Shown: in pieces, positions 1,579 to 5,654 of the stretch
Position numbering within the stretch: the stretch's first letter is position 1
Layout: each line of letters begins with the position of its first letter
Assembly: GCF_007830265.1 (NCBI RefSeq)
Contig: NZ_VLKE01000001.1
Coordinates: 4,092,001-4,156,000 of the forward strand
DNA: 64,000 bases
DNA from: Micromonospora olivasterospora
Lineage (GTDB): Bacteria > Actinomycetota > Actinomycetes > Mycobacteriales > Micromonosporaceae
Direction: 5' to 3'
Position numbers and translations under genes: made by a program
Notes under the pieces: model-generated
The model's database searches: none
Told to the model about the DNA's origin: nothing
What the model saw: the letters and a program-made list of their open reading frames with translations, nothing else

Positions 1579-3825
1579 ATGGGCAGGCGGCCGGTGACCG
1601 TGCGGCTGGCACGGTGGAGCGCGGAGCATCCGTGGCGGGCGATCGCCCTGTGGGCGGTGTTCGTGGCGGTGTGCTTCGTCGGGGGGAACGCCGCCGGGCT
1701 GAACGAGGCCAGCAAGCCCGACCAGGCGGTCGGGGAGGCGGGGCGGGCCGGGCTGATCGTCGCCGACGGCGACTTCCACGACCCGGCGCTGGAGAACGTG
1801 CTCATCACGCCGCGCACCGGAAAGCTGGACCCGGCCGCGGCCAAGACCGCCGCGGACGACGCCACGGCCCGGCTGCGGCTGGTCGAGGGGGTGGCCGGGG
1901 TGGGGGCCCCGGTGCCCTCGCGCGACGGGGACGCGCTGCTGCTGCCGGTCACCATGTCCGGCGACCCGGAGACCGCCTCGGATCGGGTGCAGCCGCTGCG
2001 CGACGCGACGGCGGCGGCGCAGGCGGCGCACCCGCAACTGCGGATCGAGCAGGTCGGCGGGCCGTCGATCGGCAAGGCGCTCGACGACACCCTGGGCGAG
2101 GACTTCAAACGGGCCGAACTGCTCAGCCTGCCCGTGACCCTGGCCATCCTGGTCGTCGCGTTCGGCGCGCTGATCGCGGCGGGCGTGCCGGTGCTGCTGG
2201 CGCTCTCCTCGGTCGCCGCCGCGATGGGGCTGTCCACCATCGCCTCCCACCTGGTGCCGGCGACCGACACCACCGCCAGCGTCATCCTGCTGATCGGCAT
2301 GGCGGTCGGCGTGGACTACTCGCTGTTCTACGTGCGCCGCGAGCGGGAGGAACGGGCGAAGGGCCGGTCCGGGCTGGACGCCGTGGAGATCGCGGCGGAG
2401 ACCTCCGGGCACGCCGTGGTGGTCTCCGGCTTCGCGGTGATCATCTCGATGGGCGGGCTGCTGCTCGTCGACGACGCGGTCTTCTCGTCCCTCGCGGTCG
2501 GCTCGATCCTCGTGGTCGCCGTCGCGGTCATCGGCTCGCTCACCGTGCTCCCGGCGCTGCTGGCCAAGCTCGGCCGCTGGGTCGGCCGGCCCCGGGTGCC
2601 GTTGCTGTGGCGGCTCACCGCGCCCCGCACCGGCCCGGACGGCCGTCCGGCGCGCCCCCGGTTCTGGCCGGCGGTGCTCCGGCCGGCGCTGCGGGCGCCC
2701 CTGGCCACCCTGGTCGTGTCGGTGGGACTGCTGCTCGCCCTGGCCGCCCCGGCGCTCGGCATGAAGCTGAAGTTCCCCGGCATGGAGGACCTGCCCCGCA
2801 CCACGCCGGCCATGCAGGCGTACGACCGGCTCATCACCGCCTTTCCCAGCACCGGCACCAGCCACACGGTCGCCGTCCGCGCCCCCGCCGAGCAGGCCGA
2901 CCGGGTACGCGCGGCGCTGGCCGACCTCGCCGGACGGGCCGGCACCGACCCGCTCTTCGCCCCGGCCGAGGCGGACGGCCCGAAGATCGAGGTGTCGGCC
3001 GACCGCCGGGTGTCGGTGCTGGAGGTCGCCACCCCGTACGCCAGCCGCACCGACGAGGCCGTGCGCTCACTGCACGAACTGCGCGACGACCTCGCGCCGG
3101 CCGCCCTGCGTGGTATCCCCGGCATCGAGTACGCCGTCGGCGGCGGGGTCGCCGACAGCGAGGACTACGCCGCGCACATCCGCCAGAAGCTGCCGCTGGT
3201 GATGGCGTTCGTGCTGGCCCTGACGTTCCTCGTGATGGCGTGGACGTTCCGGTCGGTGGTGGTCGCGCTCACCTCGATCGCGCTCAACCTGCTCTCCGCC
3301 GGTGCCGCGTACGGGCTGCTCGTGCTGGTCTTCCAGGGCGACTGGGCGGCCGGGCCGCTCGGCTTCACCTCGATGGACGCGATCGTGACCTGGCTGCCGC
3401 TGTTCCTGTTCGTGGTGCTGCTCGGGCTGTCGATGGACTACCACGTCTTCGTGGTCAGCCGGATCCGCGAGGGGGTGCGCGCCGGGATGGGCAACCGGGA
3501 GGCGGTCGCGTACGGCATCACCTCCTCGGCCGGCGTGGTGACCAGCGCCGCGGTCGTGATGGTCGGCGTGTTCGCGATCTTCGCGACGCTGAGCACGATC
3601 GACATGAAGCAGCTCGGCGTCGGCCTGGCGGCGGCGATCCTGCTCGACGCCACGATCATCCGGGCGGTGGTGCTGCCGTCGCTGATGACCCTGCTCGGTG
3701 ACGCCAACTGGTGGGCGCCCCGCTTCCTGCGGGCCCGTCCGCCCGCCCCACCCGCCCCACCCGCCCCACCCGCCCCACCCGCCCCACCCGCCCCACCCGC
3801 CCCGGAACTGCTCGCCACCCGCTGA
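1579..3825 (+). CDS. MMPL family transporter
   Basis: A 748-aa RND-superfamily (MmpL-type) membrane protein that probably exports lipids or hydrophobic compounds by proton antiport. There is an N-terminal membrane segment, then two copies of the MMPL core, each preceded by an extracytoplasmic domain. The paired motifs are GVDYSLFYVRREREE in the first half and GLSMDYHVFVVSRIREG in the second. A GAGGAGGGGG ribosome-binding site precedes the ATG. The C-terminus is a run of six 9-bp repeats (3745-3801) encoding Ala-Pro-Pro units, a low-complexity tail outside the transport core. The substrate cannot be told from sequence, and no regulator is adjacent. Confidence 0.9.
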   Translation: MGRRPVTVRLARWSAEHPWRAIALWAVFVAVCFVGGNAAGLNEASKPDQAVGEAGRAGLIVADGDFHDPALENVLITPRTGKLDPAAAKTAADDATARLRLVEGVAGVGAPVPSRDGDALLLPVTMSGDPETASDRVQPLRDATAAAQAAHPQLRIEQVGGPSIGKALDDTLGEDFKRAELLSLPVTLAILVVAFGALIAAGVPVLLALSSVAAAMGLSTIASHLVPATDTTASVILLIGMAVGVDYSLFYVRREREERAKGRSGLDAVEIAAETSGHAVVVSGFAVIISMGGLLLVDDAVFSSLAVGSILVVAVAVIGSLTVLPALLAKLGRWVGRPRVPLLWRLTAPRTGPDGRPARPRFWPAVLRPALRAPLATLVVSVGLLLALAAPALGMKLKFPGMEDLPRTTPAMQAYDRLITAFPSTGTSHTVAVRAPAEQADRVRAALADLAGRAGTDPLFAPAEADGPKIEVSADRRVSVLEVATPYASRTDEAVRSLHELRDDLAPAALRGIPGIEYAVGGGVADSEDYAAHIRQKLPLVMAFVLALTFLVMAWTFRSVVVALTSIALNLLSAGAAYGLLVLVFQGDWAAGPLGFTSMDAIVTWLPLFLFVVLLGLSMDYHVFVVSRIREGVRAGMGNREAVAYGITSSAGVVTSAAVVMVGVFAIFATLSTIDMKQLGVGLAAAILLDATIIRAVVLPSLMTLLGDANWWAPRFLRARPPAPPAPPAPPAPPAPPAPPAPELLATR

Positions 3826-3863: not shown

Positions 3864-3870
3864 GCGATCT
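3864..3870 (+). repeat. Left fragment of palindromic repeat A, copy 1 (interrupted by IS110)
   Basis: GCGATCT forms the first seven bases of the repeat found whole at 31616 and 56377; the rest continues at 5517-5583. It lies after a C-rich stretch, like the 5' flanks of the other copies. Confidence 0.8.
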
Positions 3871-3961
3871 GACCGGTAAATGACCTGTACCACGACGGGT
3901 TTTGGGCGCGGTGGGCTGGCCCGGTGTTGATGGCCAGCCCGGGCGGGGTGGGGGTGTGGGG

Positions 3962-5284
3962 TCAGGTTGTCGGTTGCAGGGTGACGGTGTGGCCGAGGGC
4001 TTCGAGTTGCCGGACCAGGCTGTTGATCTTCCGGGTGGTGTTGATACGGCGTTCGTGGAAGTCGGCGCCGAGATCGTGGTAACGGGCGGTTGGGTCGTTG
4101 AGCAGGTGCCAGATGATCACGAGGATGGAGCGGGCGACGGCGACCTTGGCCTTGCCTTTGCCTCGACGTGTGACCAGACGCCGGTAGCGTTCGGACAGGA
4201 ACGTTCCCTTGCCGCGGGCGACGGTGGCTGCGGCCATACCGAGGGCGCCTTTGAGGTACGGATTGCCTTTGCCTGTCTTGCCCGCGGTGAGGCTGGTACC
4301 GGACTGGATGGTGCGCGGACACAGCTTCGCCCAGGACACCAGGTGCGCCGCGGTGGGGAACCGTGTCATGTCCAGACCGATCTCGGCGATGATCAGTTGC
4401 GCGGACTCGGTGCTGATGCCCGGGATCTCGGCCAGGCGCCGCGGGGCGTCTGGCGCCGGGGTGTCGCCGTCGCCGCCGCCCGGCTGGGAGGGTGGGTCGA
4501 TGTCGTCGAGTATCTGCCCGATCCGTGTGGTGAGTTTCGCGATCTCGGTGTCGAGGCGGTCGATCTGGTCGAGCAGGATCCGGGCCAACTCGCCGTGATG
4601 GTCGTCGAAGCGGCCGGTGAGTGCCTCGATGAGGGCGTTGCGTTTGCGGCGCAGCGCTCCGTGGGCCAGCGAGGCGAGGGTCGCCGGATCACGTTGACCG
4701 GCGATCAACGCCTCAACCATGTCCCGCGTCGACACCGTCCGCAGGGTGGAGGCCACCGACGACACCTTGATCAGGGCGTCTTCAAGCAGTTTCTCCAACC
4801 TCGACCAGTAGCGGGTCCGGTCCCGGACCAGATCCACCCGCATCCGGGTGTAGTCACGCAACACCCGCACCGGAGCCGGAGGCACGAACGAGGGCCGCAA
4901 CAGGCCCTTCTCGGTGAGCTTGGCCAACCACACCGCGTCCAGCTTGTCGGTCTTCGGCCGCCCGGGCACGTTCTTGACGTCACGGGCGTTGACCAACTGC
5001 ACGTCCAACCCGGCTGCCTCGAACAGGTAGAACCAGATCCGCCAGTAGTCCGACGTGCTTTCCACGGTGACCTTCTCCACCCCCGCCGCCACCAGATCGG
5101 CGGCAAGGTCACTGACCGCGTTCGTGGTCGCCGTCACCTGCCACACCCGGCTCACCCGCCGCCCACCCGCGGCGGGTAGCCGGGTACACACCATCCCCGA
5201 CTCCTTGGCCACATCGACCGCACACACCCGCTCCCAGACCTTCTCGCTGTCAGCGTCCGGGATCTCTTCGGGTAACCCGCGCAT
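3962..5284 (-). CDS. IS110 family transposase (DEDD recombinase)
   Basis: A 440-aa recombinase of the IS110/IS902 family. The N-terminal RuvC-like DEDD domain begins with VCAVDVAKESG and contains a matching ESTSDYWRI strand. The C-terminal Transposase_20 domain contains LAEIPGISTESAQLIIAEIG and the expected serine-containing region CPRTIQSGTSLTAGKTGKGN. It is full length with no frameshift, so the element may be active. In characterised family members (for example IS621) the enzyme works with a bridge RNA transcribed from the non-coding end, which here lies upstream of this gene. Confidence 0.93.
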   Translation of the reverse strand: MRGLPEEIPDADSEKVWERVCAVDVAKESGMVCTRLPAAGGRRVSRVWQVTATTNAVSDLAADLVAAGVEKVTVESTSDYWRIWFYLFEAAGLDVQLVNARDVKNVPGRPKTDKLDAVWLAKLTEKGLLRPSFVPPAPVRVLRDYTRMRVDLVRDRTRYWSRLEKLLEDALIKVSSVASTLRTVSTRDMVEALIAGQRDPATLASLAHGALRRKRNALIEALTGRFDDHHGELARILLDQIDRLDTEIAKLTTRIGQILDDIDPPSQPGGGDGDTPAPDAPRRLAEIPGISTESAQLIIAEIGLDMTRFPTAAHLVSWAKLCPRTIQSGTSLTAGKTGKGNPYLKGALGMAAATVARGKGTFLSERYRRLVTRRGKGKAKVAVARSILVIIWHLLNDPTARYHDLGADFHERRINTTRKINSLVRQLEALGHTVTLQPTT

Positions 5285-5289
5285 CCGCC

Positions 5290-5500
5290 CGCGTCCCTCC
5301 TCACCGTGATCGACCAGTGGGTAGGTCGCCCGGGGGCCTCGGTCGGGAACCGAAAATCTGACCGGCGTGCTCGAAGCAACAGTGCGTGACCCACAAGAGT
5401 CCGGGCCCCGGTGCCAGACTTGCAGACGGCCTCAACTAGACCAAGATCGATCGGCGTCGGCGGGTGACCTGTCCACCATTTTCACGCCTGCGAGGCGTCC
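5290..5500 (-). ncRNA. Candidate IS110 bridge RNA region
   Basis: Non-coding DNA between the transposase start and the outer element end. On the + strand it holds ACTTGCAG (5418-5425), identical to the right target junction. CAAGATCG (5442-5449) is the reverse complement of the pre-insertion target across the core. CTGACCGG (5358-5365) is identical to the CT core plus the other element end at 3869-3876. GTGACCC (5386-5392) is the reverse complement of the near end GGGTGAC with one mismatch. Read in the transposase direction, the target-like pair comes before the donor-like pair, as in published bridge RNAs. The exact RNA ends and secondary structure are not determined. Confidence 0.55.
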
Positions 5501-5516
5501 CGAAAAGACCGGGTGA

Positions 5517-5583
5517 CTTGCAGTTTCGGCCCGGACAAAGCCGGCGAAGGCCGCGAAAAAGGGGCCAGAAGTGCAAGATCGCG
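5517..5583 (+). repeat. Right part of palindromic repeat A, copy 1
   Basis: This continues the repeat begun at 3864-3870 and ends with TGCAAGATCGC, the reverse complement of the element's start. Downstream (5583-5653) is a G-rich GGGGGA-type low-complexity run reaching the stop of the GH114-like gene. Confidence 0.8.
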
Positions 5584-5654
5584 GGGGAGGGGGAGGGGGA
5601 GGGGGAGGGGGAGGGGGCGGGGGAGGGGCGGGGGCGGGGAGGGGCGGGGGTGCG

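Follow-up and report, generated by a model that had tools for sequence, protein, structure and literature searches.

Bridge recombinases are under development as programmable DNA editors. In IS621, according to the sections consulted of PMC11208160 and PMC11208158, the bridge RNA lies in the upstream end of the element, a target loop precedes a donor loop, guides occupy both arms of internal loops, an A is flipped out in the loop base, and a DEDD recombinase acts on a repeat (REP) target with a CT core (on the guide-frame strand). Handshake nucleotides stand 3' of the core on the 3' arm; once strands have been exchanged, the two in the target loop form pairs with the donor (PMC11208158). For the RNAs of the IS1111 group, the consulted part of PMC11187229 places the complement of the top strand first, and gives the reverse order for the IS110 group on the basis of ISEc21, an IS110-type element with an upstream non-coding region (NCR). 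Here we describe, on computational evidence, a 64,000-nucleotide stretch of Micromonospora olivasterospora (contig NZ_VLKE01000001.1, positions 4,092,001 to 4,156,000; hereafter the window) in which an IS110-family insertion sequence very probably encodes its own bridge RNA; the element shares all the above traits of IS621, but its guides are in reversed order. Covariation among relatives shows an RNA on the transposase strand, folded as a three-way junction, with guides for the left target, the right target and the right end of the element, and a target-loop handshake with the left end. The parts of the element are:

3869..5518, minus strand: IS110-family element, with the CT core (AG when read on the transposase strand) included at each end; its ends are common to 17 copies, and the flanks beyond them differ
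3962..5284, minus strand: transposase (recombinase) gene, 440 amino acids, with domains DEDD_Tnp_IS110 and Transposase_20
5285..5516, minus strand: left end (LE), 232 nucleotides, non-coding, with the putative bridge RNA inside (covariance model match at 5307-5469, minus strand, 141 bits; this RNA is itself in the training set)
3871..3961, minus strand: right end (RE), 91 nucleotides, with terminal CCGGTC and then the core AG (from the sequence)

On the transposase strand, the element body runs from 5516 down to 3871. Both transposase domains score above their curated cut-offs (PF01548, the N-terminal DEDD RuvC domain, E 2e-22; PF02371, the C-terminal domain, E 3.5e-16), and the family profile matches two bridge recombinases with solved structures, IS621 (8wt6, E 4.7e-17) and ISCro4 (9t56, E 5e-17). 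These two domains and site-specific insertion at a short core make this a member of the IS110 family, which comprises the IS110 and IS1111 groups. The longer NCR lies upstream of the transposase (232 nucleotides, versus 91 downstream), a trait of the IS110 group, and the IS1111 layout, with a downstream NCR and long subterminal inverted repeats, is not found: between the two ends (terminal 40 nucleotides), exact inverted repeats reach 5 nucleotides at most, and shuffled sequences reach 5.0 on average. The same genome holds 16 additional near-identical copies, 17 in total. One of them (L017/L021 in genome G000) is interrupted, the break falling inside the RNA region just past the target loop.

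All 17 copies share the same insertion point, in the end of a repeat that forms an imperfect palindrome some 80 bp long. The left flank reads CGATCT in 17 of 17 copies and the right flank CTTGCA in 16 of 17 (CTTGGA in L006). Across the genome (7.07 Mb), the repeat-end pattern GATCTTGCASTT has 101 matches, frequently arranged in inverted pairs with a spacing of some 55 bp, and this count takes in the surviving far ends of occupied repeats; read backwards, the same pattern has no match in this genome. The target is therefore a dispersed endogenous repeat, as the original prediction, made from the sequence of this locus, had supposed. Its remainder adjoins the element:

5519..5582, no strand assigned: remainder of the palindromic target repeat, whose other end, AAGTGCAAGATCGC, is intact (sequence and genome comparison)

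An identical right junction, with the next 12 bases, occurs in a genome of the same genus (L027) and in a record named Micromonospora (L056). In genome G061, two copies (L025 and L045) stand head to tail, the RE of one abutting the LE of the next, possibly a tandem insertion beside an existing copy.

Four strings in the upstream NCR had been proposed as guides: ACTTGCAG (5418), CAAGATCG (5442), CTGACCGG (5358) and GTGACCC (5386). All four are present at these positions, and covariation in relatives indicates that the first three contain real guides, at the following places:

5444..5449, minus strand: right-target guide, RNA CGAUCU, core included, on the 5' arm of the target loop (covariation)
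5419..5425, minus strand: left-target guide, RNA CUGCAAG, core AG included, on the 3' arm of the target loop (covariation)
5358..5365, minus strand: right-end donor guide, RNA CCGGUCAG, on the 3' arm of the donor loop (covariation)
5379..5400, minus strand: 5' arm of the donor loop, which contains GTGACCC and ends in ACU, complementary to the core AG plus the T of the LE (no convincing covariation with the LE)

Segments of 6 to 8 nucleotides taken from these strings (CTTGCAG, AGATCG and CTGACCGG) co-occur in none of the 1154 other 221-nucleotide segments of the 64 kb; singly, they are found in 16, 165 and 68 of the 1154, respectively. In relatives, guides were read at fixed RNA positions and their match with their own flanks was compared with that obtained with foreign flanks. 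Our parser read 107 of 149 loci, reduced to 49 distinct guide sets, with four rows (L028, L134, L132 and L031) corrected by hand; it replaced a stricter first version that had read only 29 of the 149. The left-target guide matched its own upstream flank at 7 of 7 positions in 34 of the 49 sets, compared with 1.0% of foreign pairings, and the right-end donor guide matched at 8 of 8 positions, also in 34 sets, compared with 2.2%. The right-target guide, in a fixed register, gave a weaker but significant signal, with 2.54 matches out of 5 versus 1.40 under permutation (41 of the 49 sets being usable). For each of the three guides, none of 20,000 permutations reached the observed value. Three of four negative controls were flat. 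When guide sets present in the structure alignment were dropped, exact matches persisted for the left-target guide in 37 of 52 sets (0.5% foreign) and for the right-end guide in 27 of 50 (1% foreign), again with 0 of 20,000 permutations as high; this test is independent of the structure model but not of the 49-set test, because many loci are in both.

A scan of all positions of the RNA against all those of the flanks and ends (81 sets, 60 to 72 usable per comparison, 72 for the left end) gave its top signal for the left target at RNA 45-49 (z 11-14) and for the right end at RNA 106-110 (z 8.5-10.4). The left-target and right-end boundaries were placed using the guides, so that only two other signals, the top ones for the right target and the left end, are free of circularity. 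Right-target nucleotides 3, 2 and 4 covary with RNA 23, 24 and 22 (z 5.5, 4.5 and 3.1), in a complementary and antiparallel manner, and the first two bases of the left end covary with RNA 52-53 (z 9.4 and 9.8), directly 3' of the left-target guide. The latter pair and a candidate counterpart in the donor loop are:

5417..5418, minus strand: target-loop handshake UC, equal to the first 2 nucleotides of the LE (both nucleotides match in 68 of 76 guide sets)
5356..5357, minus strand: possible donor-loop handshake AU, whose first nucleotide matches nucleotide 1 of the right target (32 of 63 sets)

These counts derive from the 81 sets of the model alignment, 76 of which (left-target match of at least 6 of 7) served for the target loop and 63 for the donor loop. 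The permutation maximum for the target-loop dinucleotide was 36, and among sets outside the main RNA alignment (A2, see below) it matched the left end in 44 of 50. Two nucleotides that follow the left-target guide and match the left end are, at the level of sequence, the signature of handshake pairing as in IS621. In the donor loop, the first nucleotide matched more often than the 21.7 sets expected (5 of 20,000 permutations), and the match of the second was not significant among the 63 sets.

Could such matches be relics, that is, copied junction sequence, or part of a regulatory leader, rather than guides? The left-target guide followed by the handshake does reproduce the junction of left target, core and LE, as expected of a captured copy. 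However, the matches stay at fixed RNA positions while both partners vary, over up to 72 of the 81 guide sets, and unusual cores, AA in L144 and TG in L096, change jointly in guide and flank. We find the relic or leader explanation hardly credible, and retain that of a guide RNA. A second element of the same genome and clade, 72% identical (L018, L019 and L020), carries guides of its own, GTCTCAG for the left target and CCGAACAG for the right end; the former fits its own left flank at 6-7 of 7 positions, and the latter fits the right end in both copies that retain that end.

The RNA that would carry these guides is predicted to fold as a three-way junction, with a closing helix P1, a target hairpin P2/P3 and a donor hairpin P4/P5, and the guides in internal loops:

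5461..5469, minus strand: P1, 5' strand, closing helix (two-sided changes in 7 of 8 P1 pairs in A2)
5324..5332, minus strand: P1, 3' strand (covariation)
5453..5458, minus strand: P2, 5' strand, base of the target loop, with an invariant unpaired A (column pair 17-61: U-A in 19 and C-G in 17 of 36)
5410..5415, minus strand: P2, 3' strand (covariation in A2)
5428..5441, minus strand: P3, inner hairpin of the target loop (column pair 34-44: U-G 11, C-G 9, G-C 9; poorly placed in A3 and A4)
5404..5409, minus strand: P4, 5' strand, base of the donor loop, the first two nucleotides of which can extend P2 instead (two sub-alignments)
5333..5338, minus strand: P4, 3' strand (two sub-alignments)
5366..5381, minus strand: P5, inner hairpin of the donor loop, nearly invariant (alignments)
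5484..5498, minus strand: 5' hairpin ACGCC-tcgca-GGCGT, upstream of the three-way junction (sequence; similar hairpins seen by eye in some relatives, uncounted)

Alignment A2 contains 36 RNAs from the 49 guide sets, 13 being omitted. Four helices are supported in it: 97.1% of 822 pair cells form, and two-sided changes occur at 13 of 23 pairs, in 57 cells versus 19.6 after shuffling (0 of 500 shuffles as high), while shifted partner columns pair at only 30-47%. The fifth, P4, was found by inspection of columns and is absent from the RNAalifold prediction; it is supported in two sub-alignments, A3 and A4. These two groups have it in registers one column apart, so it was counted separately in each. 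Alternative pairs proposed by RNAalifold at this site (columns 71-85 and 72-84) were left out. P3 pairs in 93.5% of cells in A2, but in 53.1% and 45.1% in the two sub-alignments. Two internal loops, for target and donor, are thus backed by covariation, on the donor side for the right end only. Rfam gave no match at gathering score within the window. The original prediction, which saw in this region the logic of an IS110 bridge RNA, with the target loop before the donor loop on the transposase strand, and which named a two-loop fold and covarying flanks in homologous elements as its checks, is borne out on these points: the fold places the segments in internal loops, and flanks covary with them for the left target, the right target and the right end.

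Since guides are readable on either DNA strand, one may ask whether a functional RNA is instead transcribed from the plus strand, antisense to the transposase. The 23 conserved pairs include 119 G-U cells on the transposase strand versus 7 A-C cells, which would be G-U on the other strand; the RNA is therefore assigned to the transposase strand. An antisense RNA would moreover have its guides on the 5' halves with respect to both DNA strands, unlike published IS621, and we regard it as a most improbable alternative to an RNA in the sense of the transposase.

Left and right guides, which the original prediction had not named, can now be told apart, and their order is reversed relative to IS621. 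In the present clade it is the right-target guide that occupies the 5' arm of its loop; the left-target guide and, in the donor loop, the right-end guide both occupy 3' arms. This is not the IS110 order of ISEc21 and IS621, where the left-target guide lies 5' of the right-target guide, but that of IS1111, where the complement of the top strand lies 5' of the match to the bottom strand. As the upstream NCR and the IS110-type protein would lead one to expect the published IS110 order, the locus might encode an ordinary bridge RNA whose reversal is an error of labelling. Several observations argue against this. In the IS621 copies of E. coli (L159-L162), read by eye in the same way from the printed sequences, the left-target guide ATCGGGCCT faces the flank ATCAGGCCT beside the left end and sits on the 5' arm, and the complement of the right target, GTAG, sits on the 3' arm, in agreement with the published positions; our reading is thus not inverted. 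An automated best-match table for IS621 was discarded, its element ends being set too far out, in conserved REP sequence. The aligned RNAs place the left-target guide 3' of the right-target guide, and the handshake nucleotides come after the left-target guide and match the LE. A mere labelling error is thus very unlikely, though a little less so than the two alternatives above, and a true reversal is preferred.

To judge from these alignments, the clade combines an IS110 layout (232-nucleotide LE, 91-nucleotide RE, no long inverted repeat) with the guide order of IS1111. What appears to be new is the swap of loop arms relative to IS621 and to published ISEc21, despite the upstream position of the RNA. 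Read along the transposase strand, the strong guides are on 3' arms here and on 5' arms in IS621, which has its right-end guide on the 5' arm; in addition, P1 closes both loops into a three-way junction, and the recombinase is of 440 amino acids versus 326 in IS621. With the IS1111 seekRNAs, as described in the consulted part of PMC11187229, the clade shares the order of target guides (top-strand complement 5', bottom-strand complement 3'), but differs by its upstream NCR, its lack of an inverted repeat beyond that seen in shuffles, and the size of its protein. ISEc21 shares the upstream NCR and family membership and has the opposite guide order, a comparison based on its description in the same source and not on its sequence. 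ISArsp3, annotated on a Pseudarthrobacter plasmid (L150), has the same reversed order, with 7 of 7 matches for the left-target guide and 7 of 8 for the right-end guide, whereas its protein is 43.9% identical and its target is different. We found no description of an upstream-NCR element with reversed guide order in the text of the literature searched. ISAar29 is, by its name, presumably an Arthrobacter element. Its guides are given in Extended Data Fig. 10c of PMC11208160, and the reversed order may already be drawn there.

A covariance model built from A2 (R1) matches 89 of 98 sources, training loci counted, and does so on the transposase strand in loci for which the strand is given. Matches beyond the training set include ISArsp3 (E 3.6e-9) and a Paenibacillus element (2.8e-4), so that the clade ranges over Actinomycetota, ISArsp3 included, and one Paenibacillus element. 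Because R1 finds no match in the elements of Caballeronia (L152) and Citrobacter (L153), we do not count these two in the clade, despite guide-like matches visible by eye. In L091, the R1 match lies downstream of a transposase that is truncated; it may be part of an adjacent element. The reversed-order rows have transposases of 407-456 amino acids where guide order was read, and a small tree puts IS621 in a separate, well-supported branch (100/99) from them, their own fork having unstarred support of 87/93; this tree, in which L163 forms a long branch, serves only to place IS621 in another branch.

Several results weigh against a reversed bridge RNA at this locus. A left-end donor guide was sought in two scans and not detected. 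Over 72 guide sets, complementarity between LE and RNA showed no antiparallel run: the top signal (z 4.2) lies at RNA 54, outside the donor loop, and the next (z 3.2), at RNA 74, is inside the 5' arm of the donor loop but isolated, so that this arm has no guide-like link to the left end. The assignment of GTGACCC to the other element end is thus not supported, and of the earlier statement that both targets and both donors are represented, the two targets and the right-end donor can be demonstrated. The right-target guide has few nucleotides, and there are families in which it fails, such as that of Streptomyces sp. NBC_01549. There, ten loci (L072-L081) have varied right flanks and nine share the left flank CAGGTCAG, which was not matched in L078; this is the pattern to be expected if the left-target guide alone were enforced. 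Among the 149 loci, 42 could not be parsed, and one negative control, the reverse complement of the left-target guide against the upstream flank, was mildly raised (247 of 20,000). Outside A2 the donor-loop handshake is weak (21 of 41 sets; 78 of 20,000), and folding of the single sequence shows no excess stability (z +1.05), an uninformative result. R1 has no match in nine of the 98 sources: L027, L042, L056, L088, L146, L149, L152, L153 and the IS621 locus L159. Finally, the window copy has A for G (in RNA sense) at 5465, in P1, and at 5412, in P2; both substitutions weaken a conserved pair. This copy may be less active than its sisters, because neither helix substitution has a counterpart in the 16 other copies, all of which have G.

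Expression of the RNA, its binding by the recombinase and a circular intermediate are inferred from IS621 chemistry. By this analogy, one RNA would hold the excised circle (RE-core-LE) and a chromosomal repeat end together within a recombinase tetramer. Of the two DNA strands, the one opposite the transposase gene would be paired with the 3' arms, cut at the core and be the first to be exchanged. Capture of the left end on the target loop would fall to the handshake bases, and the element would be joined to its target at GAT-CT-TGCA. The frame would be flipped with respect to IS621: if IS621 chemistry holds here, the left end takes the role of left donor, played there by the right end.

Four strong signals of pairing, those of the left target, the right target, the right end and the target-loop handshake, and a weaker fifth show that a large sister branch is built on the same principle, its guides being permuted and its fold closed. 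They provide anchors for programming these RNAs, make the flip directly testable and correct a rule drawn from few examples; the sequence data also show conservation of target-loop handshake pairing in elements remote from IS621. We consider it likely that the large-transposase IS110 branch (407-456 amino acids) represents a third architecture of RNA-guided recombinases, with an upstream RNA, a three-way junction, both loops permuted so that strong guides are on 3' arms, first exchange of the strand opposite the transposase gene, and the left end as left donor. If so, the published rule on IS110 versus IS1111 guide order would be confined to branches like that of IS621 or that of ISEc21, and evolution would be free to vary how the donor is oriented with respect to the RNA gene.

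Two simple repeats flank the region. One, at 3744-3804, is of the CCGCCCCAC type and codes for proline at the end of the upstream gene; the other, at 5585-5650, is a GGGGGA-rich run adjoining the target repeat.
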